64,000 nt of DNA from Carallia brachiata (Eukaryota; Streptophyta; Magnoliopsida; Malpighiales; Rhizophoraceae). The notes beneath the pieces are model-generated. The model searched no databases. It was not told the origin of the DNA and saw only the letters and a list, made by a program, of their open reading frames with translations. How positions within the stretch are numbered: the stretch's first letter is position 1; every line of letters starts with the position of its first letter. The stretch is from assembly GCA_021464245.1 (NCBI GenBank), contig JADCRB010000046.1, positions 3,717,122-3,781,121 on the forward strand. Direction: 5' to 3'. Shown piece by piece: positions 1 to 24,243 of this stretch. Made by a program: the position numbers and the translations under genes.

Positions 1-389
1 TCTAAAAGTCTCTTTACTGCAATTATATCTTAAAAAAGAAAAATGACGTGCTCAACAAAATGAAAAAGAAAAAAAAATAAATTAACACAAAATTTGGCCT
101 TGACAACCATGCCCATTGCCAGCAAATTCAAGGGCTAAAACCACAGAAAGAAAAGGCAAGAAGCCAATGTTAACAAAGAAAAAAAAAAGAAAAAAGACGA
201 GAGTTTGTTTCCTTTTCTATGACCTTGATTTGGTGATTGGCAAGCTGTTTCAGTGTGCAACATCAAAAAATAAACGCGTAAAAATACTGAGAGTCAAAGA
301 AAAGCCAAAAACAAACTTAAAAGGTATTTCTGAAATAAAAAGTAACGGCAGCCCTAATTTAGAACATGCAAAGAAAACAATAGATTGTT
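1..389. other. AT-rich intergenic DNA
   Basis: A-rich sequence without a recognisable gene. One 93-codon open frame exists here but is lysine-rich low complexity (runs of AAA/AAG) with no domain, so it is not called. Confidence 0.6.
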
Positions 390-1065
390 GGAATTGATTA
401 ATAGTATCAAGTTGAGAGAACAATTATCATTGGGGGAAAAACTCTGACAAGCGATTCGAAACCGACACGAATCTCGTTATTGGAGCGAACAGATGTCCAA
501 AACATATCATTGATTCACCATAAACAACTCATTACTAACAGTTATAGATTGGCATCAAGCAGAAGCCAACAAGATAGAGAGAAGTGTTAATTGAAGAACC
601 GCAGAACAAGAAACTTAGAATTGGACCAAAATCACAGAGTAATCAAAGAAATAGAAAGAAATACATATGAATGAATGCGTGCTTTCTTTCCAGTAGATAC
701 TTGCAGAGAAAAAACACAACACAGAAAGAAATACATTCTTGGAATTGATTAATGGTGTTAAGTTCATCGAACACTTATCTTTCCGGAAGCTCTGACTTAA
801 AAACCCCTGGAACCTCGATCTTGGAGCAAACAGACGTCCAAAACACATCATTGAATCATCGAAGACGCCTCATTAATAACAATTATAGATTGGCGTCAAG
901 AAGAAGCCAGAGAGAGAATTGTCAATTGAAGAACCGAAGGAAAAAAAGAACTTTGAATTGGACCATAATCACAAGCAAATTAAAGAAAAAGAAAGAAATA
1001 AATATGAATGCGCCGTGCTTTCTTTCCAGTCAAATATTCACAGAGAAAACACAACATAGAAGACG
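390..1065. repeat. Diverged tandem duplication, period about 351 bp
   Basis: Two adjacent copies start with GGAATTGATTAAT at 390 and 741. They share an ordered series of blocks: a GTCCAAAACA block, the ATAGATTGGC(A/G)TCAAG block, a TTGAAGAACCG block, an AATTGGACCA block and a TGCTTTCTTTCCAGT block. Identity is roughly 80% by eye with small indels, so the duplication is old. No coding frame is conserved in both copies. It could be a duplicated promoter or gene fragment; I do not recognise the ancestral sequence. Confidence 0.7.
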
Positions 1066-4000
1066 ATGTATGTCTTCTGGCTCTGGAGGAGGAGCAGAGC
1101 AAGAAGGAGGATACAGAGCGGGAAGGGAATTGGAAATACATAGCGGCCCGCGTTCTTATAAAATTACCTAAGAAAGAAATCCCAAGGCCTTGCGGATTCC
1201 ATAAACTAATAAAGCCCACCCATTTAAGTCCCGTATCTATACCAGTCATCAGATCTTTTAAACCGACTTCCTTGCGAAACCATATTAGTACGTAACGGCT
1301 AGAAAATCAAAAAAAGATTTAAGTCCCAATATATATTTTATATTTTTTTTATCAAATGTTGTAGTTTAATAATGACCCAGTATGTTTTCTCTTATATTGA
1401 TTATAATTCAAATTTTCTCGTTGTCGCTCGTCTTCAAATAAAATAAAATTTATGCTCAGACATCCTGTTGAGTTTTACAATATAATTGTGGAAAATTTCA
1501 AGGACACCGGTCCGGAGCCCAGAAGTCTTGGGAGGAATAAAGGCCATCCACTTTAGCCTGTCATTTATTAGTGTGAGTATATTTTAAGCAAACTGATGAA
1601 GCCCCTTCGGGCGACTTCAGCCCACATAACGAATAAAGCAATAAAAATTTATTTTTTGATGGGAAAAGAATTATTCTTACTTCGAAAATTTTCTGAAAAG
1701 AATGCTTCTTATTTTGATTGACAATGGCAAGAAAATTAATGACAGCCAATGCGTCCTACACTCAATGCAATTCCCACATAGCATCTATCCTTATACGACA
1801 AAATCACCGGAAGGAGACAAACATGAAAACATTGACTTGGGGATAAGGCAGCGGGTCTGCCACAGAGATTCACTACTACGGTTTATGGTTTTTTTTTTTT
1901 ATTAAAAAATATATATATCGTCGACACGTGAGTTATCGTATGCATAAATCGAGACCATGATCATTATTATTGTTCTCGTTCAACCTATCATATGGACAGA
2001 CACTTACTACTCTAACACTGTTGGACCCAAATGTAACTTTTCGAAGCAGATTTCAACATAAATGAATTATAAATCAGCATCGATGTGTGCACAATTTCAT
2101 TGCTAAGTCTCAGAGGGCATTACTTCTAATTTGTGCGGTTTAAAACTTACACCTAAACTAAATATAAGAAAAATACGTTTGATTACGATTAGACTTTCGT
2201 CTCAATGATGCTAATACGTCTATGTTATGATTTTGTAAAATGAGACTAATGCAGTTTTAATGTTGCAATTCTTTATTCTTTGCACACACTAATTGACAGC
2301 TGTATCCATGTGCTCGCCGCATGATTAGCTCTCTTGTGTACTATGCTCGATGATGCTTCTTCTTCAAGCCATAGCTTTTTCAGTCACCTTTTTTTTTTTC
2401 GGTTTCCTTTCTTGCCACGTTGTATTAAAGCAGAGGGACCCTTCGTGGACCCTGCATTGGAAAAGAATTGGGTAGCATGGATGTTATGCTTATTTTTTAT
2501 ACAAAAGTTCTTTTTTTTGTTTTCAAGGAAATTGTTAGAACACTAGTAAAGGAGGAAAGTTGTGAGGGTAAAGTCTGAAAAATAATGCCTAAACTTTGCA
2601 TTTGACAATCATTGCTACCAACTACTTAATCTATGTCCAATCCTCAAATTTCGTTTAATTTGGTCGTTTACCAGTTTTGTTGAAATCATTTAACAACAAA
2701 TTGTCTAAAGAATCATTTTTCTTCACTGTCAACTTTTCCTTGTCTTACGTGGAAAAATTAATAAAAGATGTCAAATGTTCTCACACTTCTACTAATTTTT
2801 ATACTTTAGCATGGGGATTTTTGTTTTTTTTTCGAATGTAAAAAATGTCATGCGTCGCACAGTACCTCCACATGCAAATTTTGTATTCTAGTTAGAAAAA
2901 TCAAGTTATTTATCCGGCAAAAAACGATTAATCTACTAGTGAAAGAGTATCAATACAAGTGAATTTAAATTTGTAAAAATAGAGCCATAGAGGCGAACTG
3001 CGTTCACGTTGTGCAACCCACAATTTTACGAAGATATATTATAATAGAGACAAAAAATATATCGATAGTGCACAATATACCATTAGCCAATACTATCATT
3101 TTTCCATAGCCATCGGCTTGGAAGGATCTCAATACTCCGACGTAACATGGAAAAAATACTGCAATATATATCTAAAATGGCAACTAGGGGTTGCTTACTT
3201 AGATTATAACTTAAGTAAGAGGGAAAATCACACGTTTAACTCATGAAAAATAATTTTCTTTTGGATATATGATAAAAAAATGTGAATAATTAGTTCAAAT
3301 ATCGTAAAATGTGGCCTCTTTGCCAGAATTATACCTTACAACCAGGATCAAGTACCTACAAGGTTAAATTTGTGGGTTAAATGAAGAATTTTGTAACAAA
3401 GTGTACTTAATTCATTACATATCGTTTTGGAGCCCACATATTCTTTTATAGGTCAAAATAATGTCATACTAATATTCATCCTAATTAAATCTGGTGTATA
3501 TATATTTTTGTTAGTTTATAAATTACAAATGTAGATTTGGTAAAGTATGTTCCCTCGAAAGATTTTCCTGCAGTTGATGCGCTTTTGCTTTGAATCCAAA
3601 GCGAAGGATCCCAACAAGTCAAAAGCCGCATAGTGGAGCTCAAACATAAAATAACCACCGCTTATCGTTTGTAAGAAACCGAGCAGCCAACCCACGGCTT
3701 TACTGCTTCAGTTTTGTTTTGTTTTGTTTTGTTTTATCGTCCTTTTATTGTTGCTTTCAGAGGGGCAGGCCGGTGGTGGGCGGGGATTGGACGTGTCTAC
3801 CGCCCAAATCGTAAGTTGGAAACATTACATTACATTGATTAAAATTTAATGCCCTATTGCATTTTGTCGCAGAGCAATTTAGCTATTTTGGAATCGTTTT
3901 TACTCGGCTCTCATGTGTCTCGTTCGTTTTTGTCTCTCCATTTTTGTCTTACTTTTTTTATCCTTTAGAACTATTAGAATAACAGTAAAACAGAGAGAAT

Positions 4001-4918: not shown

Positions 4919-4923
4919 CATAA
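4919..4923 (+). repeat. Target-site duplication, left copy (CATAA)
   Basis: CATAA immediately precedes the LTR start and matches 11247-11251 exactly. Five bases is the usual footprint of Ty3/gypsy integrase. Confidence 0.85.
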
Positions 4924-5094
4924 TGTAGACGTTTTCTTTTTATTAAAAAAAAAAAAAAGTCAAAGTCGGCGTTACCGATTTCAAATTCGGCAACACCGAC
5001 CAAGGAAAAAATAGAAAAAAAAAATTCCTTTTCCATATGATATTCACGTCAGAAAGGAACACTATAAATAGGTCTCTCTGCCTCTCAATTCAAA
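4924..5094 (+). mobile_element. 5' LTR remnant (U3 and TATA box only)
   Basis: Starts TGTAGACG and is collinear with 10131-10250 and 10450-10610. It keeps the GTCGGCGTT..AACACCGAC stem-loop and a TATAAATA box at 5063-5070. Similarity to the 3' LTR stops after CTCTCAATTCAAAG (about 5094), where RT coding sequence begins. R/U5, the primer-binding site and the 5' coding half were therefore lost in one deletion. Confidence 0.8.
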
Positions 5095-7253
5095 GGCTGG
5101 CCTACATTCGCCGTTTCATCTCCAATTTAGCTGGGAGATGTCAACCTTTCCATCGGTTGATGAAGAAGGATGTCAATTTCGAGTGGGACGAAACTTGCAG
5201 CAAGCCTTTGAGAGCATAAAGAAGTTTTTTTCTAATCCACCAGTCCTGAGTGCTCCAATTCAAGGAAAGTCGTTGATTATCTACATTGCAGCGCAGGAAA
5301 GATCTTTGGGAGCTCTGCTTGCATAGGAAAATGAGTAGGAAAAGGAAGCTGCCCTGTACTACTTGAGCAGAACACTAAACGGTCCAGAACTGAGCTATTC
5401 GCCCATTGAAAAGACATGTCTAGCACTATTCTTTGCCATTGATAAGCTGAGGCACTACATGCAAGCTCACATGGTACGTCTCATTGCCAGAGCTGATCCT
5501 ATCAAATATATCTTATCTAGACCAATATTGTCAGGACGACTTGCCAAGTGGGCAGTAATCCTACAAAGTTATGACATTGTCTACGTGCCTCAAAAAGCAG
5601 TAAAGGAAAAGGCTTGGCAGATTTCCTGGCAAATCACCCTATCCTGTCGAATTGGGAGTTCACAGATGATCTTCCAGATGAAGAGGTCTTTTACATTGAG
5701 ACACTGCCACCATAGACGATATTCTTTGATGGTGCAGCAATACGTGATGGTGCTGGTGCCGGCATAGGTTTGTCACTCCTCAACGACAACTACACCATAT
5801 ACTATCATTCTCGGTGAGTTATGTTCAAATAATGTTGCTGAATACCAGGCTTTAATCATTGGTCTTCAAATGGCTGTCGATATGAAGATTCCAACTATAG
5901 AAGTCCATGGAGATTTCCAGCTCGTCATCAACCAACTTACAGGGTTGTATGACGTAAAGAAAGAGCACCTTGCACCTTACCATCAACGTGCTCGACAGCT
6001 AATGGATGAATTTGAAAGCATCACCTTGGAGCATGTGCCTCGACGAGAAAACACTCAGGCAGACGCGTTGACTAATCTGGTCACTTCTCTTGCAAAGTCA
6101 GAAATCCAAGCTACAGTTGTTGCCGTATGCCAGAAATGGATAATGCCACAGAAGGATGATGAGGAAACTATAGCAGCCAACGCTGTATCTTTACGTCCCG
6201 CGGAGGACGAGGATTGACGCCAACCAATCATTAACTACCTACAGCACGAGAAGCTGCCCGAAAATCGTTGTCATAAGACATAAATTCAACGACGAGCTCA
6301 CCGCTTCATATATCTCAAGAATGCTCTGTATCGAAGATCTTTTGATGGAGTTTTACTTCACTGCCTAGGCAATGAAGAGGCAAAACAAGCTCTCGCTGAA
6401 GCACATTCTGGTGTTTGTGGCGGACATCAATCAGGGCCTAAGTTGCACTTCCAGCTCAGAAGGATGGGATACTACTGGCCAACTATGGTACGTGATTCAA
6501 TTGAGTTTGCTAAAACCTGTCAAGCTTGTCAATTTCATGCAAATTACATACATCAACCACCAGAGCCATTGCATCCAACTGTCTCGTCCTAGCCCTTTGA
6601 AGCTTGGGGCCTCGACTTAGTGGGGCTTTTGCCAAAGTCATCCCTACGTCACCTTTACATCCTCGCAGCAACAGACTACTTCTCAAAATGGGCCGAAGCT
6701 ATTCCACTTAGAGAGGTAAAGAAGGAGCATGTTGCCAATTTCATCCGGACTCAGCTGATCTATCGCTATGGAGTCCCTCGATTCATCATCACTGATAATG
6801 GTAAGCAGTTCTACAACAGCTTGATCGACAAACTCTACGAGAAGTTCAAGTTCAAGCAGTACAAGTCATCCATGTACAATGCCCCAGCAAATGGCTTGGC
6901 CGAAGCATTCAACAAGACCTTATGCAACCTATTACGGAAGGTAGTCTCTAAATCCAAAAAAGATTGGCATGACAAAATTCCGGAGGCATTATGGGCGTAT
7001 CGTACAACTTACTGGACTCCAACATAGGCGACCCCATACTCACTTGTCTGCGGTGTCGAAGTAATACTCACTTGCAGTACGACGGCCCATCAACATGAAG
7101 CAGCATCGGCCTGGTGACAAGCTTACTTCCAAATGGGTCGGGCCATACCTAGTGCAGGAGGCCTATACTCACAACGCTTATATGCTGTCAGACCAAAAAG
7201 GCGTCCGAATTAGCCCAATCAATGGTAAATTTCTGAAACAGTATTATGTGTAA
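5095..7253 (+). pseudogene. Degenerate pol: RT end, RNase H, archaeal-type RNase H, integrase
   Basis: The reading moves between frames and crosses stops (for example TAG at 5324). The order is clear. The RT C-terminus/RNase H start is near 5100-5330. The RNase H continues through LSRTLNGPELSYSPIEK and the DPIKYILSRP motif (5360-5640). A second RNase H runs from DGAAIRDGAG (about 5725) through EVHGDFQLVINQL to RRENTQADAL (about 6090). Integrase has an HHCC zinc finger (HSGVCGGH, CQAC; about 6400-6530) and a D,D,E core: DYFSKW, ITDNGKQF, NGLAEAFNK (6670-6920). The C-terminal tail GPYLVQEAY to GKFLKQYYV ends at TAA 7251-7253. The enzyme would copy and integrate the element but is not functional here. 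Confidence 0.85.
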
Positions 7254-7304
7254 ATATGTTTTTAAAAAAAATCCAAAAAAAAAGAAAAAAAATTCAAAAA
7301 ATAG

Positions 7305-7335
<31 letters not shown>

Positions 7336-7630
7336 AAAAAATCAAAAAAAAAAGTTGGGAAGTTCCGATTTGAAACTCCAAACGAAAATCCAAATCCGAA
7401 AATCCAAACCCAAACATTTGAGCCCAATTCAGAAAACTCAAATCCCAACTCAAAAGCCTGAAAACTAAGTCCATACTCAAAACCCAAACACTCGATCCAA
7501 ATCTAACAATCCAAGTCTAGAAGCTCAAACACTAGACCCAAATCCAATCTAAAGCCCAAAACCCAAAAATTTCAAGTTTCAGACACAGTCCAGAACCCAA
7601 GTTCAAAATCTAATTCAACTCCTAGCCCGT
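7254..7630 (+). other. A-rich and CCAAA-rich spacer of the retrotransposon
   Basis: After the pol stop comes about 100 bp of poly-A with scattered G/C, then degenerate repeats of AAxCCCAAA/AATCCAAA type to about 7620. Open frames here are pure low complexity on both strands and are not called as genes. Confidence 0.6.
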
Positions 7631-7754
7631 ATGAGTATAAATTGTGAACGACCCAAAAATATAAAAGCGACGGAGGGTTTGAGTTTGAAACTCAGCATCA
7701 GTTTCAACCGATCTTCACCACTTACCAGACCTTTACTCTTCTGTCATAAGAAAG

Positions 7755-8381
7755 ATGAAACCAGTTGCAGAACCTCAAGACAAGGGAGAAGAAAGGTCAC
7801 CCCGCACAAGGTGGCAATCAACCATGTCACAACTGCAAATTTTGGAAGAAGTCTTCCACAACAATGGAGGTATTATTCCAAATACATCTCAGATTTACCA
7901 ACTTGTCTTACGATTGCGCCTGCTCGGGGCGATCGAAGGAAAAAATATATTTTATTGGTTCCAGAATCGGAGAAGCAGGAAGAAACCAGCACTGAGAACT
8001 GCTTTTTCCAAAGCACAGTCTGCCGTTCCGATAGTAGATCCCACCGGTACAGCTTCGCCCGCAAATGAAACAGGTCTGAGTTCTACTATTGCAATGGTCT
8101 CTTCAGACCATAACGATCAAAGTCGTAGCCCGTGGGAGCATGCTAACTGGTCCTGGTGGTCTTACGGAGTCAGTCAATGGTTCATTCCTCCTAAGTACTT
8201 AATTTTAGGAGGGACTTTTCTAACAGAAGGAAGTCATTCCGGCGAAATATTGCCTCTCTTCCCAGAATATTCCAGCAGTATCAACTAGCCGGAAGGCTCC
8301 AGCGACGTCAACATCATCGGCCCACCAGACGAGGCTGAGCTTGACTTGGAGTTGCGCCTCGGGCCCCGCCAGGACGGCTGA
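7755..8381 (+). CDS. WUSCHEL-like homeobox ORF carried inside the retrotransposon
   Basis: Starting at ATG 7755, 177 codons are open to a TAG at 8286-8288. The same frame then stays open for 30 more codons to TGA 8379-8381. Residues about 17-77 form a WOX homeodomain: RTRW, QILEE, NNGG..P..SQI, then IEGKNIFYWFQNRRSRKK, with the IEGKN and FYWFQN signatures of helix 3. Residues 164-170 read EILPLFP, matching the WUS-box (TLPLFP). Beyond the TAG, codons 196-203 read LDLELRLG, an EAR-type repressor motif. Homeodomain, WUS-box and EAR in this order is the layout of WUSCHEL-clade factors, which control stem-cell identity. The homeodomain has no intron, suggesting capture from a processed transcript. 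The ORF is better preserved than pol. The TAG may be a C-to-T change or a real truncation. I cannot tell if it is expressed. Confidence 0.75.
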
Positions 8382-8396
8382 CAATATAAGGTGCAA

Positions 8397-8505
8397 CGAC
8401 TTCTGCGGCACACGGCAACAATTTCTGCAGCACACGGCAACGACTTTTGCAGCACACGGTAACGACTTCTGCAACACACGGTAACGACTTTCGTAACGCA
8501 CGTCA
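8397..8505 (+). repeat. 22-bp tandem repeat, five units
   Basis: Units begin at 8397, 8419, 8441, 8463 and 8485. Each follows CGACTTCTGC-AGCACACGG-TAA with 1-4 changes, and the last unit is the most diverged. It starts 15 bases after the distal stop of the WUS-like frame, inside the element's 3' region. Confidence 0.8.
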
Positions 8506-8674
8506 GCCGCTGCCTCTTTTGTCTCTTATACGGGAAAGGGACGTGGATGACCCTACTCGATTCTGCGTACCTCCTTTTTGACTAATCAAAAAAAAAAAAA
8601 AACTCTTTATGTTATATATATCCTGCATGCCTGAGCCATAATACTCACCCATCAGCTCTTCTTCTTCTTAAAAG

Positions 8675-10450
8675 AAAATGGCTAGTCTCTGCACTTGTCT
8701 CAGTAAGTTCTTTGATCAAGAAGTTGGAGGCGCACGAGCTAAGAAAAGAATGAGTAGTCTTCCTCGAGGAATCCCTAAAAGCCCTCGAAACTTAGTCTTC
8801 AACGCCATCGGTGTCATGGAGTTCCAACTGCTCTCCTTAGTTCACCTATACCACAGAGGGATGAGACGCTGCAATCATCATAATCTTCCTTTAGATGCGA
8901 CGACGTACAGGAAAGTTCCAACTACTCTCCTTACATCGGAGCAGACTTGGGAATCATAACTACAGTCAGTCTCTCTGTGTGCCGATCTTAAAGTTCTAAA
9001 GTGTTGGGCCTTCATCTTGGGGAGGTTCAAGTTTTTTACCTACCGGATCATTCTCACCAGAGTTTTGGAACTTCAAAGAACCTTTGCTAGCTTTTGCGAG
9101 CTATGGAAGTTCAACCGCACCTGGAGTCAGAATGTCAATTTTTATATTGGCTGGGGTGCTAACTTTCTCAAATCGTATCGGGTTTCTATTGCGATCCAAC
9201 AACAGCAGGCATAGTCAGGGTTAGAAGAATTTAACATTCAATGTTCATCAAGACATTTCAAAACTTCAAGCTGGACTTCAAGACTCGGATCGGATCACGA
9301 CCGCAAAGTTCTTCCTTACCGACCCTTGAAGTGGAGGCATTTGTAGACATTTTCTTTTTATTAAAAAAAAAAGAAAATGTCAAAGTTGGGGTTGCCGATT
9401 TCAAATTCGGCAACGCCGACCAAGGAAAAAATTGAAAAAAAAAAATCCTTTCTCATGTGATGCTCACATGAAAATAGCTAGTCTCTGCACTTGTCTTAGG
9501 AAGTTCTTTGATGAAGAAGTTGGAGGCGCACGAGCTAAGAAAAGAAGGAGTAGTCTTCCTCGAGGGATCCCTAAAAGCCCTCGAAATTCAGTCTTCAACG
9601 TCATCGGTGTCATGGAGTTCCAACACTCTCCTTAGTTCACATCTATCACAGAGGGATGAGACGCTGCAATCATCATAATCTTCCTTTAGATGCGACGACG
9701 TACAGGAAAGTTCCAACTAGTCTCCTTACATCGGAGCAGACTTGGAAATCATCACTACAGTCAGTCTCTCTGTGTGTTCGTCTTGAAGTTCCAAAGTGTT
9801 GGGCCTTCATCTTGGGGAGGTTCAAGTTTTTTACCTACCGGATCATTCTCACCAGAGTTTTGGAACTTCAAAGAACTTTTGCCAGCGAGCTGTGAAAGCT
9901 CGACCGCACCTGGAGCCAGAATGTCAATTTTTATATTGGCTGGGGTGCTAACTTTCTCAAAATCGTATCGAATTCCTATTGTGATCCAACAACAGCTAGC
10001 ATAGTCAGGGTTAGAAGACTTCAACATTCAATGTTCATCAAGACATTTCAAACTTCAAGCTGGACTTCAAGACTCGGATCGGATCACGACCGTAAAGTTC
10101 TTCCTTACCGACCCTTGAAGTGGAGGCATTTGTAGACGTTTTCTTTTTATTAAAAAAAAAAATGTCAAAGTCGGCGTTGCCGATTTCAAATTCCACAACG
10201 CCGACCAAGGAAAAAATGGAAAAAAAAAAGATTCATTTCCCATGTGATGTTCACATGAAAATGGCTAGTCTCTGCACTTGTCTCAAGAAGTTCTTTGATC
10301 AAGAAGTTGAAGGCGCACGAGCTAAAAAAAGAAGGAGTAGTCTTCCTCAAGGGATCCCTAAAAGCCCTCGAAACTCAGTCTTCAACGCCGTCGGTGTCAT
10401 GGAGTTCCAACTACTCTCCTTAGTTCACATCTACCACGGAGGGATAAGAC
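8675..10450 (+). repeat. Tandem repeat of the element's 3' end, period about 790 bp
   Basis: Copies are at 8675-9470, 9471-10257 and a truncated third at 10258-10450. Each starts AAAATGGCTAGTCTCTGC (AAAATAGC in copy 2). Copies 1 and 2 run through the polypurine stretch AAGTGGAGGCATT into about 125 bp of LTR U3 (starting 9342 and 10131), then break at CACATG, inside the U3 hairpin. Copy 3 breaks at GATAAGAC and rejoins U3 at ATTTATTAAA. The short open frames within (for example from 8678 or 9432) differ between copies and are not called as genes. Confidence 0.8.
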
Positions 10451-11246
10451 ATTTATTAAAAAAAAAAAGAAAATGTCAAAGTTGGCGTTGCTGATTTCAA
10501 ATTCGGCAACGCCGACTAAGGAAAAAATGGAAAAAAAGATTCCTTTCCCATGTGATGTTCACATGGGAAAGGAACCCTATAAATAGGTCTCTACCCCTCA
10601 GTTCAAAACATATTCAGCAAATCTGTAAACAGAAAAATATAGAGAATTTGAGAGAAAAAGAAAATTTTGAAAATCTCTCAAGAAAATTTTTTCTTTTCCT
10701 ACTTGTTTTTACTCTGCAGTATACTCTCTTAACTCCTTTTTCAGAGATATTTCAGGAGTAAGCCCAAAAAAATTTGTTGTTTCCATTTCTAAAGTTATTT
10801 TTAGGTTTATATTCTGAAATCGCTCTAGATCTGAATTTATGAGAATATAGATCTAAAAATATCAAATTATTACAAATCCGGCTGGGATTAAACCTCATAC
10901 GGCCCTCAGCAAAATTCAGGCAGCTCATCCGAGAACAAGTCCCTTTGACTTTCGGTGAAATTAAGTTAGATCGGTTCAGATCAGGTCTCTGCGGTTCTTA
11001 ACCGTAGTCTAAACGTCCAAATCAGATACAGTTTCAGTCTACCCAGTTCAAGATAAAGCTGTGAAAATTATTTCTGTCAAAGATCAAGCTCGTACAGCCC
11101 TTGATGGAGTCAAAAAATGAACACTAATCAGAGGATTTATGGAGATCGACCCCATGTAAATTTTCTTTTATTTTTAAATTTTTATTTGTAATTTATTTTT
11201 GTATTTTCGAGTTTAATTATTTTATACTCAAAATTTACCCATTACA
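10131..11246 (+). mobile_element. 3' LTR (interrupted by the third repeat copy)
   Basis: TGTAGACG follows the polypurine tract at 10111-10130. U3 sequence runs to about 10257, is interrupted by 10258-10450, then resumes with its stem-loops and TATA box. The remainder is an A/T-rich R/U5 ending ..TTACCCATTACA before the CATAA duplication. The length of about 1.1 kb includes the inserted repeat copy. Confidence 0.75.
10481..10585 (+). promoter_or_regulatory. LTR promoter: two stem-loops and TATA box
   Basis: The stem GTTGGCGTTGCTGA/TCGGCAACGCCGAC (10481-10516, 8-base loop) recurs in every U3 copy. A perfect 16-bp inverted repeat follows at 10540-10574 (TTCCTTTCCCATGTGA, 3-base loop, and its complement). 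TATAAATA lies at 10578-10585. The 5' LTR keeps the same order with some decay. This is the likely retrotransposon promoter. Confidence 0.65.
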
Positions 11247-11251
11247 CATAA

Positions 11252-17523: not shown

Positions 17524-20500
17524 ATGGATTTGTCTTTTGAGGGTGAGTTTTTCTATTCTAATTCATCTTTTATTTATTTGATTGTTTGATTCTATTGTTT
17601 CCGGAATTTACTTTTCTTGTTTATATGTAAGAGATTTGTCATGCAAGCTGTTGAATATTTGTTCATGGGTTAAAGGTGAAATCTTTGGTGAAGTTATGAA
17701 TGCATTTTTGGTTTTTTTTTTTTTCCCTGCTACCGAATTCTGTGACCATGAATAACAGTGAATTTTCGATTGCTGACAGGTTTTGGGTTTTCTTTATAAT
17801 TTTTTTTTATGTGTTGTTAAAAAATGATAATTTTCGGGTTGTGATTCCAGATGGTTGTTAAATTGGAGTTCACTTCTTGCCTAATATTGAATATGTTGTG
17901 GTGAGTGAGTTTTTGAGGTTTATAAGCTGCGTTATGTCTGGTTTCAGTGGCATTTTTTTTTTCTTTTTCCCTTCCCCCCCCCCCCAATATTTTCCTGGCA
18001 TTATGATATCTAACTGGAAAATCAAGGATTCAAGGTAATGCTGTATGGTTATTTTTCCCCCTTGTGAGCATGCCATCATGATAAATAATGCATATGATGG
18101 ACTTTTGGAAGTGTTGGCACTTCAAAGTCAATGAAGTTTCTCGAGATTTTATAGCAAAGCCATGTATGATTTATGAACTTTAGCCGAGTAGATCGTAGCA
18201 GTCTGTAAAGTATTGCATTATTTATTTGATATGGCTGGAAGTTGGAACATCTACGTTAGTGGAAGTCAATTATTTTATTTTATGTGTTTTTCTCTAACTT
18301 GTTGCTTGCTTTTTAGTAAACGGTTAATAATTTTTTAGGCACTAAAAAGAAATTGATGTGGAGCTATTAAAGCTGGTCTCCTAACTCTCTGATAATGACA
18401 AGTTGACTTCTTCCTTGGTTCATGTATTTGCTTAGTATTGTTGTCCATGCTATCCTCGTGTTTCATATTGGGGGTCATTAGATCACAGTTGTCCTGATTG
18501 AGAGAAGTTTATTGGCATGATTGTAGATAGTGCTTTCGGTTTATTGATTTTGATGAAAATTTCTGGTTTCTGATTGTTTTATATTTATCCTGAAATGCCC
18601 CCTCCCCCCCAAAGAATTCCCCCTTAGCCTGCATAGTCTATACGGTGACGTACATTTTATATTTCTTGACTTTAGGAGGTGCACTTGATCCATCAAAATG
18701 CAGTAAATTAACTATGGATGAAAAGAGAGAACTTGTCTACCAATTATCGGAGCGATCGGGGGCCTCTGAAACATTGCAATCATGGAGCCGTCAGGAGATT
18801 TTACAGATCCTGTGTGCAGAGATGGGAAAAGAAAGGAAATATACAGGCTTGACAAAGTTGAAAATCATAGAGCATCTTTTGAAAATTGTGTCTGAAAAGA
18901 GATCAGGGTATTCTGAGGTTGCAACCGACCATGACAAAGGATCATCTCCTGCACCTGCCCAGAAAGCTTCCAAAAGGCAGAGGAAAGCTGATAACCCATC
19001 TAGGCTACCCGCTCCCTTGAATTATCATGCAATGAACAACAGTGGTGGTGATCTGAGCAACATTGCGTACTGCAAGAACTCTGCTTGCCGGGCTACATTA
19101 ATACAGGATGATACATTTTGCAAGAGGTGTTCATGTTGCATCTGTTATCAATATGATGACAACAAGGATCCCAGCCTGTGGTTGATTTGCAGCTCAGAGC
19201 CTCCATTTCAAGGTGTTGCATGTGGTATGTCATGCCACCTTGACTGTGCTCTAAAGCATGAAAATTCTGGCATTGCAAAAGATGGTTGTCTTGGGAGACT
19301 TGACGGGAGTTTCCGATGTGTCGCTTGCGGGAAAGTGAATGATTTACTTGGGTAAATATCTCCACAAACTATTTCACAGTTATGTACAAGTTTGTTCTAT
19401 TGTCTAGTATCTATGCCTAGCTGTATTTCAACGTGGAGATTTTTCCTGTGCTATTTTTGATATCACTTTTCTCATAGCTATGCGATTATTGATGTTCTAG
19501 TCATATTGGGAAGTCGGGAATATCACAATTTGTTTCTGATTGATTTTTTATGTATGGGAATAGTTGCCCTTCATAATATAATTTTAAAAGCAACAGCTTC
19601 GTGAATCGACTCATTTCTTAGTTTTTTTGATCCTGGCTGCCAAGAATGATGCCTTTCTGTAAGTTGAATAGAGTTTGATTGATGTGCTGTTGGTGGTTTT
19701 AATGCATTCAGGTGCTGGAGAAAACAACTGATGATAGCAAAGGATACCAGGCGTGTAGACATATTATGCTATCGCATGTCTGTGAGCCAGAAACTTCTGA
19801 ACAGAACTGTAAAGTATAAACAACTTCATGAGATTGTGGATGGAGCTGCCAAGAGGCTGGAAGCTGAAGTGGGTCCATTAACTGGTTTACCTGTAAAGAT
19901 GGGCAGGGGCATTGTCAATAGGCTTTCATCGGGACCAGAGGTTCAGAAACTCTGTGCATCTGCTATGGAATCGTTGGACAAAATGCTTTCAAGCTGCATT
20001 TTGCTTCCATTGCCCAATCCTAAAATACAAGGTAATCATTGCATGCCTAGTGTAAGAAACAAAACAAGCAGCATGTTTTTAGCCCAATAATTAACTTATC
20101 GAGTACTGGAGTTCCAGGTTGTCTCCAGATTTCTTTTCAGGAATATGGCCACTTACCTCAAATCATGCAAATTCTTTTGGTTGTTGCTATTTGATACATT
20201 ATCTTTTTTCTTCTCATTGGTTTCCTCAAGTGACCTGAAGGTCAGAGATTTGAGTTGTGGAAATACTCTTTGTGAACAAAAGGGTAAGGCTGCGTGGGAG
20301 CCTCGTGCACCCGGGACACCCTTTTCTATCGTTTTGCTAAAGTGATAACTTTTGAGATGTTTAATCCTCTGTCAACATCTTCAGATTTGAAATTGATAAA
20401 TCCAAGCACGGTCAGATTTGAAGATGTATGTGCAAATTCTCTAGCTGTGGTTTTGGGTTCTGAAGAACCTTCAGGAGATGCTATTGTTGGTTATAAATTG

Positions 20501-21570
20501 TGGCATCGCCAGGCTATGCTTACAGATTATCCATCAGAACCTACGTGCACACTATATGTCCCAAATACAAAGTTTATTGTCACCGGTCTGTCTCCTTGTA
20601 CGACATATTATTTCAGGATTGTTTCGTTTGATGATACAAGAGAACTTGGAACCTGTGAAGTTCAGTTCCCAACCAGCATTCAGGATGAAGCCCCAAGCTG
20701 CTTCCTGGTTGAAAGAAGTCAAAGCCCAGCAACAAATTGTAGTAGCCTTTCTAACCCGTCTTCTGTGGAAGATGAAACTAATCACAACACACTGTGCAGT
20801 TACCAGATTGTCAACCGAGCGGACAATTATCTTAGTTATTGCAAGAACGGTGATAAAATCATTTCTGCCAAGATGTCCAATGGTCCTATCAACTGTACTG
20901 TCATTAACGAAGGGAGAACCCCAGTAGATGCAGCTCCCTTATTAGAAAAGGATATATGCTTAGGTAGCACCAAATCGAATGCTGATGTGCATAACCTTGA
21001 GAGCAAGCAGTCACCGGAGGGCCAAATTGCTGAGGAGATGAGCCCTGATAATGGCTCTGACGCCCCAGTTCAAACTGGAATGGAAAGTGTGCAGTTTGTC
21101 GATAACTCAGATGCTAGCTTGCCTATCACTCCATGCAGGTTGGAAATACTCAAGGATGTGCAACGAAGAAACGCAAAATCCAAATTTGGTAACAAGGATC
21201 CATTAATGGGACTGCAACAGGAGAGGGGCCGCAAGATGGCAGCACGTCCAAGAAGAGAAGTGGGGAAAGTCGAGATGAGGAGTGCACAGCTAATGGCCAT
21301 TCAGATAGAGAGTTTGAGTATTATGTGAAAGTAGTCAGACGGCTAGAATGTGAGGGACATATTGAGAAGAACTTCAGGCAGAAATTCCTGACTTGGTACA
21401 GCTTGAGAGCAACTCAACAAGAGATAAGGGTTGTGAAGGCATTTGTTGATACATTTATCGATGATCCAGCATCTCTTGCTGGGCAGCTGGTGGACACCTT
21501 TTCAGAATGTATTTCAAACAGGAGGTTATCCGTTGTGCCAGCTGGCTTCTGCATGAAGCTTTGTCATTGA
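17524..21570 (+). CDS. VIL2: VIN3-like protein (VIL2/VEL1 type), frameshifted before its C-terminal domain
   Basis: Exons: 17524-17542 (MDLSFEG), 18676-19351, 19712-20031 and 20385-21570, all with GT-AG borders. The protein has an N-terminal helical region ([32 protein letters not shown]) and a Cys-rich atypical PHD finger in exon 2 ([28 protein letters not shown]). Exon 3 is helical; exon 4 begins with a fibronectin III domain (TVRFEDV to FRIVSFDD). In the next frame lies the VID domain ([20 protein letters not shown] to [11 protein letters not shown]). VEL proteins bridge Polycomb PRC2 to chromatin, and the VID domain mediates their polymerisation. The frame switches by one base near 21203, between NKDP and NGTATGEG, with no splice site. 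As written, the frame ends at 21328 without VID. A lost base or consensus error is likely. Confidence 0.9.
20221..20328 (+). mobile_element. Truncated Au-like SINE in VIL2 intron 3
   Basis: It has a degenerate box B region (AGGTCAGAGATTTGAGTTG), then AGGGTAAGGCTGCGTG and the tail GGGAGCCTCGTGCAC..CACCCTTTT. These blocks match the Au SINE order known from many plants, with an internal deletion between GGCTGCGT and GGGAGC. It lies just upstream of the FNIII exon. Confidence 0.6.
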
Positions 21571-22563
21571 GGATCTTGTTACAGGTCCTACAACTAAGAT
21601 CAGATAGTTTTTGGTACGCAAATCCACAAGGGTTTGTGTAGCAGTAATTCATTAGAGCACATTTAACATTCTTCATTCAGACCGTTGACATTTATATCTG
21701 TCATTAAAATTTCCCATTCTTATGATGCAAGAATGTAGTCGATTCTGGTTTATAATATAACGACCTTCTCATTAACTAACACCTTTGAATTGGTAATTAG
21801 TTGCTTGGCTGTTATGAGTCTTTAAGCAATTAGACAAACAGCACTTGAACTGTGAAAGCATGTGATCTTTTGCTGGGTCGGCTAAATTTCTGGAACACGC
21901 AATTATGTTTGTTTGCTAGATGGTCCTACTCGTTTCCTGGTTGAGATTGAAACCTTGAAAAATGTACTATTTTCAATTGTAGGCACAAACTCAATCACAG
22001 TATGACAGCATGGCTGGCTGGACTGTGGTCGCATTGTTGACTTCAGACAAGGAAACTAACCTGTCTGAATGCAGTTTGTAGTTACTACCTGTGTACTGTT
22101 CTGAAGAGAAGTTCTCATTCCCAGATAAGCGCAGTTATAAACAATTGTCTTACTAGACAATTACCAACGGTTGTGATTTCCCCAGCCAACCAGCCCGACC
22201 ACCACGAGGTTGAATTGGTTGTTGGATTTGACAAAATGGTAATTCATGCTAATAATTGCGTAAGTAAAATATTGCGAGGCAAATTAATCGGAACAATAGG
22301 TGAATTTGACCTGACGTGTACATTGAATCACTTTTAACGTTTCGATAGATAATAACAATTAATAATGAAATTATAAATACGTATTTAATAATTATAATAA
22401 TATAATAAAAATATAGATAATAACAATTAATAATAAAATTATAAATATATATTTAGTAATCATGATAGTATAATAAAAACACGCCTAAAGGCGTCCGATT
22501 GATTAAAACTAAGTTGGCGTTTGAATTACTCATTTAATCACAGCACCAAACTATAACCTGCGC
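21571..22563. other. VIL2 3' flank and intergenic DNA
   Basis: The VIL2 3' UTR presumably occupies the first few hundred bases. A near-duplicate block AGATAATAACAATTAATAA..ATTATAAATA occurs at about 22347 and 22416. No other gene is seen. Confidence 0.5.
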
Positions 22564-24243
22564 ATGTTGTTGGCAACTGGAAATAAATGTCAGCTGTCGC
22601 TCTGTCTTCTCGGAGACATTAATTTCCACATGACCCGAATCCTCTCAACATCAAACCTTCCAATTCTGGCTCTTTTACAGAAGTGCACGACCATGACTGA
22701 GCTAAAGCAAATCCATGCACACACGATCACCACTGGCCTGTCTCGTTTCACGTTCACAACCAGCAAAATCTTGGCCTTTTGTGCTCTTTCTCGAGATGGA
22801 GACATGAGATATGCCCAAACAGTTTTCGATCAAATCTTAATCCCAAATGCCTTTGATTACAATTCTATGATAATGGGGTTTTCCCAAAACTCGTTACCTC
22901 AAAAGGGTCTTTCGCTTTTTGTTCATATGCGCTCTGTGGGCATTGCACCAAGCGCCCGCATTTTCACGAGTTTGGTTAAGTGTTGCGTCTTTTTGTCTTG
23001 GCTTGATCAAGTTCACGGCCAAATTCTTAGATTTGGGCATAAGGGTGATGTTTACGTTAGTAGCTGTTGTATAAATATGTATTCAAAGTTTGGAGCAATG
23101 GAACTTGCTCGTCAAGTTTTTGACGAGTGCGTGGACAAAAATGTGGTTTCTTGGACTAGTCTGATAAGTGGGTTTGTAGGTAATGGGTTAGTTAAAGAAG
23201 CGCGCGAGTTGTTTGATGGAATTCCTGAAAGAAATGCAGTTTCTTGTAGCGCAATGGTTTCTGGGTATGTTTTGAATGGTTGTTTCGATGAGGCAATTGT
23301 GTTGTTTCAAGAATTTAAAAGTTGCAGTAATGTCGTACGTAAAGGGTCTCTTTTGGTTAGCGTTCTTAATGCTTGTGCAGCAATAGGTGCTTTTGAAGAA
23401 GGAAGATGGGTTCATGCCTTTGTACATGATAATGGTTCAGAGTATGAGCTTGAGATAGGCACTGCGTTGATCGATTTTTATGCAAAGTGTGGGTGTGTAA
23501 AAGACGCGATTGAAATATTCAGGAAGATGCCATCTAAAGACATTATGACTTGGAGTGCTATGATCTTGGGGTTTGCTACCAATGGAGAGCACAAGGCAGG
23601 GCTTGATCTTTTTGAGGAGATGGAAAAGAGGGGTCCCAAGCCAAATGCTGTAACTATGGTTGGGGTTCTCTCTGCTTGCAATCACCAGACTTTGGTGAGT
23701 GAAGCTTGGCGGTTTTTTGGTCGTATGAGCAAAGTTTACGGCATTGTTCCCATGATTGAGCATTATGGATGCATGGTCGATCTTTTGGCTCGGGCTGGGA
23801 TGGTTGAGGAAGCAGAGATACTAATAAACAGTATGCCAATGAAACCAGATGGAGCTATATGGAGCTCTTTGCTTAATGGATGTCTCATGCACAATCGAGT
23901 TGACGTGGGGGAGAGGATAGGGAGGCTCCTAATCCAATTAGAGCCTCAACACAGTGGAAGATATGTACTTCTGTCTAATATGTATGCCACTAAAGGCAGC
24001 TGGGAGGAGGTGTTGAGGCTGAGGGAAACGATGGAGGAGAGGGGAATAGTTACTGTCTCCGGTTGGAGTTTCGTGGAGATTGATGGGATTGTCCGTAAGT
24101 TTCACGCTGACGATAAATACCATCCTTGTTTAAGATTTATTCTCAAATTTCTCAATGAACTCAGTAAGCAACTTGACTGTCATGATGTGGTAGAGGATGC
24201 ACCATTGTGTAAAAGTGAAATGTCCTGTTATGCGGGGGCTTAA
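22564..24243 (+). CDS. PLS-class pentatricopeptide repeat protein with E/E+ end
   Basis: A single uninterrupted 559-codon frame, as is usual for plant PPR genes. It carries tandem 31-36-residue PPR units, for example [53 protein letters not shown] and [15 protein letters not shown]. The C-terminus has the E motif ([19 protein letters not shown]) and an E+ segment ([22 protein letters not shown]), with no DYW domain. The family binds organelle RNA base by base; PLS-E proteins mostly specify C-to-U editing sites, recruiting a DYW partner. Start: ATG 22564 is the longest. An internal ATG at 22630 ([11 protein letters not shown]) would fit an organelle-targeting N-terminus equally well. The RNA target cannot be inferred. 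No frameshift is seen here. Confidence 0.9.

Follow-up and report, generated by a model that had tools for sequence, protein, structure and literature searches.

The functions of the extra ORFs of plant retrotransposons are mostly obscure, and captured host genes in these elements are usually taken as accidents. The closest described systems come from Vigna marina and V. riukiuensis, where WOX genes have multiplied between LTRs; for V. riukiuensis, a 2023 meeting report gives more than 1000 WOX copies, most of them bounded by identical LTRs and accompanied by target duplications (PMC10714607). Among Ty3/gypsy elements, the Tat clade is marked by an additional archaeal-type RNase H (aRH), which in angiosperm Ogre and Retand is placed between RNase H (RH) and integrase (INT); extra ORFs are common in this clade, and the domains named for them are the plant mobile domain, Transposase_28, and Athila ORF-1 (PMC6317226). 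The term "homeodomain" was not found in the main text of that survey, and because the survey took ORFs of at least 250 codons, a WOX ORF of 203 to 208 codons would escape it. Maize Bs1 and other gene-capturing retrotransposons likewise hold host gene sequence within an LTR element, and the transduced genes are described as existing in one or a few copies (PMC7264820); neither homeo- terms nor WUS occur in the main text of this review. In cotton, Gypsy and Copia elements are reported near WOX genes (PMC5501002).

Here, we report a high-copy retrotransposon family in which the extra ORF can be clearly identified with a master stem-cell regulator, WUSCHEL, and in which the functional motifs of this ORF are under selection near the level of the integrase. 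The family is like the Vigna elements in that a WOX gene is amplified between LTRs, in a different plant order; the Vigna account describes copies, LTRs, and target duplications, with no gag-pol anatomy, lineage, selection analysis, or sequence. The first-pass annotation of this DNA, which knew of no element of this kind, has to be corrected on this point in view of the Vigna report, the single near precedent in the literature searched, which did not include most subscription papers, so that absence in print is not established. From the Tat elements of the survey it differs in that the extra ORF encodes a WOX protein, and from the captured-gene retrotransposons in that the gene is found at no fewer than 150 places and is under selection, whereas theirs exist in one or a few copies. 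The family offers a test of whether a transposon steers plant development in order to gain the germ line; in addition, transposon copies of this kind can inflate WOX gene counts in such genomes.

The window, i.e., the whole stretch of 64,000 nucleotides that was analyzed, contains the WOX ORF inside one deleted Ty3/gypsy element (4924-11246) with a CATAA duplication on both sides. The features are as follows, with the basis of each in parentheses.

4919-4923, left target-site duplication CATAA (LTR/flank comparison)
4924-5094 (+), 5' LTR remnant, fused straight to RT/RNase H sequence (85.5-90% matches to the 3' LTR region)
5363-5767 (+), RNase H remnant, RT_RNaseH (Pfam E 2.5e-15)
5768-6217 (+), second RNase H, of the archaeal type (RVT_3), a diagnostic feature of Tat elements (Pfam)
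6593-7027 (+), integrase core remnant, rve (Pfam E 4.9e-9)
7636-7754 (+), leader conserved among copies, with one TATA-like box at 7636 and one at 7660; candidate internal promoter for the WOX ORF (copy alignment)
7755-8288 (+), WOX ORF, 177 codons to a premature stop (ORF translation, Pfam, genome copies)
7803-7985 (+), WUSCHEL-type homeodomain (Pfam, solved relatives, predicted structure)
8244-8264 (+), WUS-box EILPLFP (ORF translation)
8340-8363 (+), EAR motif LDLELRLG, in frame beyond the premature stop (sequence, other copies)
8674-10450 (+), 3' noncoding part of the element, in which some stretches recur about 790 bp apart (self-comparison)
9326-9341 (+), polypurine tract, inner copy, with an LTR start next to it at 9342 (sequence, LTR comparison)
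10115-10130 (+), polypurine tract, outer copy (LTR comparison)
10131-11246 (+), 3' LTR, broken up by repeated internal sequence (LTR comparison)
11247-11251, right target-site duplication CATAA (LTR/flank comparison)

With an LTR remnant beginning at 4924, an LTR ending at 11246, and CATAA on both sides, the unit is a single insertion, which afterwards suffered a deletion reaching from the 5' LTR into RT/RNase H. Gag, protease, and most of RT are missing from it, the 5' LTR remnant abutting RT/RNase H; at the other end, the stretch 10558-11246 matches the LTR of a different copy at 90% identity. The ORF had first been placed between the integrase and the polypurine tract on the sense strand of the element; order and strand hold, but both tracts lie beyond the range then given, i.e., the tract and the LTR are farther out because the 3' material of the window is repeated. 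The repetition at 8674-10570, in which 3' noncoding sequence and the start of the LTR recur at a distance of about 790 bp, gives two polypurine tracts and two LTR starts, and it may have arisen by unequal exchange or template switching.

The observation of a WOX ORF with a homeodomain and a WUS-box in the window is confirmed. The 177-codon frame, the homeodomain, and the WUS-box of the first-pass annotation were all recovered in the positions listed above. Residues 17-77 of the ORF match the Pfam Homeodomain (E 2.1e-11), and the closest solved structure is the WUSCHEL homeodomain 6ry3 (E 3.8e-16), aligned over 64 residues with no gap, whereas the STENOFOLIA homeodomain needs one. Judged against WUS, STENOFOLIA, and the host sequences, the homeodomain of the element has the WUSCHEL length, which is one residue above that of other WOX proteins; IEGKNIFYWFQNRRSRKK is found in the homeodomain of the window ORF. 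In the AlphaFold model of the ORF (mean pLDDT 63), confidence is confined to the homeodomain, for which WUSCHEL homeodomain structures rank first (6ryd_B, TM-score 0.93, target length). The EAR motif, previously described as lying further on in the same frame, is in that frame but past an in-frame stop, and the window copy has therefore lost it from its ORF. Chance is excluded because the frame recurs at every one of the 150 places scored in the genome and because purifying selection acts on its homeodomain and on its WUS-box/EAR end. The near-intactness of the ORF in the window, previously read as a hint of function, says little, since this copy is old, deleted, and stop-bearing; the evidence comes from the other copies.

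Across two copies the domains gag, RT, RNase H, archaeal-type RNase H, integrase, and WOX were found in this order: L041 has gag and a protease match that is weak and under the cut-off, and L035 has RT, RNase H, RVT_3, and both the zinc-binding and core domains of integrase. RVT_3 is present in the window as well as in L035, and in L035 the aRH lies between RH and INT as it does in angiosperm Ogre and Retand. This position of the second RNase H supports the assignment of the element to the Tat clade of Ty3/gypsy, in agreement with the Tat-like element first proposed. Ogre and Retand differ from each other in PBS type, target-site duplication length, and type of extra ORF; of these traits, the element shows 5-bp duplications and a PBS that was not matched to a tRNA.

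A search of the window's own genome (337.5 Mb, 164 contigs), suggested earlier as a way to find dispersed copies, gave 2126 first-look candidates, of which 150 were scored. All of these match the ORF at 79-100% identity, so that it is present in at least 150 copies rather than once, a single occurrence being the outcome that had been named against the original proposal. Counted by rows, 103 of the 150 places have no stop within the 177 codons; in a set of 74 copies, 34 have a stop in this stretch. Twenty-five of the 150 rows share one score at 81% identity, and in the six that were examined the first 177 residues are the same, which is the mark of a young subfamily. The EAR motif is inside an unbroken ORF in 22 of 41 rows (four places are listed twice). 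An integrase match of at least 100 residues lies within 1500 bases upstream of the ORF in 33 of 36 copies. In the other three the WOX ORF has no such integrase just upstream (35 residues in L002, none in L023 and L028); they may come from elements that underwent deletion or recombination, or may represent an alternative arrangement. When longer flanks were considered, integrase or the second RNase H was upstream in nine of ten copies, with none for L043/44, which is the same place as L002. Please note that the copies were picked by their likeness to the ORF, so the sample is biased toward conserved copies and the presence of the ORF in them is circular. Rows were removed where four loci repeated one place, where 3 of 40 fetched copies were out of register, where 4 of 74 had indels, where 1 of 36 was too gappy in the integrase, and, for one analysis, where 3 more of 35 lacked a confirmed integrase.

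Of the 10 long-flank copies, 6 show direct matches of the LTR type that are 689-993 bases long and separated by about 9.4-10.7 kb (L035/36, L037/38, L041/42, L045/46, L047/48, and L049/50). The direct matches of L033/34 and L043/44 are shorter and are not established as LTR pairs; L031/32 has matches of at most 85 bases, with 2695 masked bases, and L039/40 has none above 80 bases. K2P was computed for the first four LTR-pair copies, those with located LTR ends, and the values (0.0152, 0.0174, 0.0172, and 0.0031 for L035/36, L037/38, L041/42, and L045/46, in that order) correspond to an LTR divergence of 0.3-1.7%. Target duplications of 5 bp were found in three of five elements tested, namely CATAA in the window and AACCC and AGGAT in two of the LTR-pair copies; the other two of the four with located ends showed no clear one. 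The ORF has thus been amplified widely, and partly recently, within the element. In L009 and L019 the ORF continues past the WUS-box in a different frame (218 and 221 codons) and loses the EAR motif; this alternative frame is free of stops, and altered proteins may be made from it.

Selection was evaluated with codon models on 35 copies, omega being tested against 1 by 2dlnL. The WOX ORF as a whole has an omega of 0.634 (2dlnL 25.6), with 0.377 (30.2) for the homeodomain, 0.887 (0.7) for the linker, and 0.407 (23.5) for the part from the WUS-box to the EAR motif. None of six readings of the downstream noncoding DNA was significant (omega 0.95-1.12, 2dlnL at most 2.8). The wrong frames of the WOX region gave 1.06 (2dlnL 0.3) and, for frame +3, 1.47 (2dlnL 14.9), the latter showing that simple neutrality does not describe the region in its other frames. 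In a second set, restricted to the 32 of the 35 copies with confirmed integrase, the integrase has an omega of 0.354 (2dlnL 103.9), compared with 0.655 (18.4) for the whole ORF, which is less constrained, 0.401 (21.5) for the homeodomain, 0.930 (0.2) for the linker, and 0.409 (20.4) from the WUS-box to the EAR motif; the integrase value on the 35-copy set, 0.480, includes the three copies without confirmed integrase. A larger set of 70 copies (64 distinct) gave 0.701 overall, 0.465 for the homeodomain, and 0.927 for the linker, with 0.636 for stop-free and 0.723 for stop-bearing copies. The dN/dS comparison across copies, one of the checks first proposed, thus finds purifying selection on the homeodomain (0.38-0.40) and on the WUS-box/EAR end (0.41), and none on the linker. 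Because these values include decay after insertion, the constraint during replication was probably stronger than the measured omega.

The sharing of differences among the 70 copies was also considered. The nonsynonymous:synonymous counts are 169:68 for singletons, 72:35 for differences in 2-3 copies, 34:22 in 4-9, and 32:24 in at least 10, the neutral ratio being 2.3-3.2 depending on the mutation model; over the same classes the stops number 17, 5, 1, and 0. Singletons differ modestly from differences in at least four copies (Fisher p 0.028) and give p 0.072 against all shared differences; for the stops, p is 0.017.

For the ancestry of the ORF, nine WOX exons of the same genome were compared, which from their sequences we take to be two WUS, two WOX1, one WOX4, one WOX3, one WOX2, and two WOX5. 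In a homeodomain tree of 30 rows, nine element copies form one clade (97/100) apart from these nine host exons, the separation that the first-pass annotation had predicted; the stem of this clade is 2.24 changes per column long, and the tree fixes no place for it among the WUS-superclade genes. In the host WUS genes the homeodomain and the WUS-box are in separate open stretches more than 1 kb apart, whereas the ORF of the element is one uninterrupted frame with no intron; capture of a spliced messenger is for this reason the likely origin, and the lack of an intron together with the single clade suggests that a WUS messenger was captured once. A protein search with a profile of 10 copies returned 448 matches, of which the best 120 were considered; all 120 have a homeodomain, at 30-53% identity, and many are named WUSCHEL, the others hypothetical. 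None of these best 120 resembles the ORF of the element, as judged by sequence for six and by identity and coverage for the others, and two of the 120 are Vigna records (P0101 and P0128), both named WUSCHEL. P0013 and P0054 were candidates by their query coverage (99% and 93%) and were rejected, their sequences reading as ordinary WUSCHEL proteins. P0001, P0002, and P0005 (one contig, two Ipomoea species) are WUSCHEL-like proteins of 145-161 amino acids with a homeodomain, a WUS-box, and a C-terminal LELTL/LELSL; they could be unusual WOX genes or element-carried. Viral contigs held no relatives of the ORF or of the second RNase H, in a collection where records near the window's genome may be absent.

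The protein of the element shares with the WUSCHEL/WOX factors the WUSCHEL-length homeodomain, the WUS-box, the EAR motif, and the DNA-reading residues; its likeness to WUSCHEL is confined to these motifs, with none seen elsewhere, and helix 3 reads FQNRRSRKK in the element and FQNHKARER in WUSCHEL. EAR motifs recruit TOPLESS co-repressors. An EAR-type LxLxL is present in 35 of 36 copies when they are aligned to the frame of one copy with stops masked, and the WUS-box residues L166, L168, F169, and P170 are kept in 69, 69, 68, and 62 of 70 copies. WUSCHEL is described as reading bases through R38, Q89, N90, and R94, with W39 as an anchor, and its variants T35R and S36R as retaining TGAA binding with changed TAAT binding (PMC7203112). 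The equivalents of R38, W39, Q89, N90, and R94 are kept in 68, 67, 64, 70, and 68 of the 70 copies, and the position of S36 is an arginine in 68. Since the DNA-reading residues are kept and S36R shifts TAAT binding in WUSCHEL, the element protein likely binds DNA with an altered preference.

Over the last 120 bases 5' of the ORF, conservation per site is 0.955-0.99, compared with 0.66-0.94 in 30-base windows farther upstream (0.13-0.16 at an insertion of the reference copy). TATA-like boxes, which are consensus matches only, occur at about -119 in 34 of 36 copies and at -95 in all 36, and there is no ATG from the first of them to the ORF in 33 of 36; the conservation covers the whole 120 bp and not the boxes only. 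A separate WOX transcript from a putative promoter in this leader seems plausible. Autoregulation of the LTR through WUSCHEL sites was considered and rejected, TGAA, tandem TGAA, TTAATGG, TAAT, and the G-box being not above shuffles in four LTRs and four 3' regions; as WUSCHEL motifs show no enrichment in the LTRs, the protein more likely acts on host targets than on its own element.

Taken together, our best explanation, which we consider probable with the mechanism included, is a Tat element with a resident WUSCHEL-family gene between integrase and the 3' LTR; the interpretation of the first-pass annotation is supported to this extent. Briefly, the element would have acquired a WUS messenger on one occasion, and the WOX protein would be made from its own transcript, starting at the conserved TATA-like leader. 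It would then go into the nucleus, bind TGAA/TAAT-type sites of host genes, and recruit TOPLESS-type co-repressors through the EAR motif. The cell would thereby be shifted into a state that is dividing, stem-like, or permissive in some other way, and in which new insertions would get into the germ line. As selection for a working protein has left its mark on the copies, the element may act on host development. A stronger version, which we put forward tentatively and with more doubt than belief, likens the element to a transforming retrovirus, of which it would be the counterpart in plants, and in it the selected WUSCHEL-derived protein would drive a stem-like, germ-line-competent state and would have been retuned, by the arginine at S36, to its own set of host genes.

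Alternatively, the WOX protein could serve the element directly, for example as a DNA-binding factor for nuclear import, integration targeting, or packaging, or by repressing host silencing genes, and not through host cell fate. The codon models establish selection and not its target, which is compatible with such a role, and so is the altered binding predicted from the arginine at the S36 position (68 of 70 copies), as with S36R in WUSCHEL (PMC7203112). However, the WUS-box and the EAR motif are conserved together with the homeodomain, a combination more in keeping with a transcriptional repressor than with a structural role, and the LTR shows no enrichment in WUSCHEL motifs; we judge direct service unlikely. 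Passive hitch-hiking of a WUS cDNA that was captured by chance and gave the element no help draws on the fact that plant LTR elements do acquire host genes (PMC7264820), and the near-neutral linker (0.89-0.93) and the stops in 34 of 74 copies agree with free decay of parts of the ORF and of copies after insertion. Under hitch-hiking, omega should be 1 throughout, and this is contradicted by the values of 0.38-0.40 for the homeodomain and 0.41 for the WUS-box/EAR end against noncoding controls near 1, as well as by the depletion of stops and replacements among shared differences, so that it seems very improbable. A reading of the ORF as an ordinary WOX pseudogene of the host, in or beside which an element landed by chance, would have nothing to point to beyond the window copy itself with its deleted pol; the 150 or more copies, the integrase upstream in 33 of 36, the target duplications outside the LTRs, and the clade apart from the host genes refute this outcome, which had been named in advance as fatal to the original proposal, and we give it practically no weight.

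Several other features of the window are recorded here. About 7 kb from the element there is a VIN3-like (VEL) gene at 18594-21328 (+) with PHD_Oberon and Fn3_VIN3 domains, and a PPR gene with a single open frame and an E motif is located at 22525-24243 (+). The nearest relatives of a PPR protein of the window are from Erythroxylum (68%), one contig (68%), and Jatropha and Mercurialis (67%), which puts the host among the rosids and probably in Malpighiales. At the left edge, 369-1171 (+) contains a diverged repeat pair, 351 bp apart, with an open frame of 139 codons.
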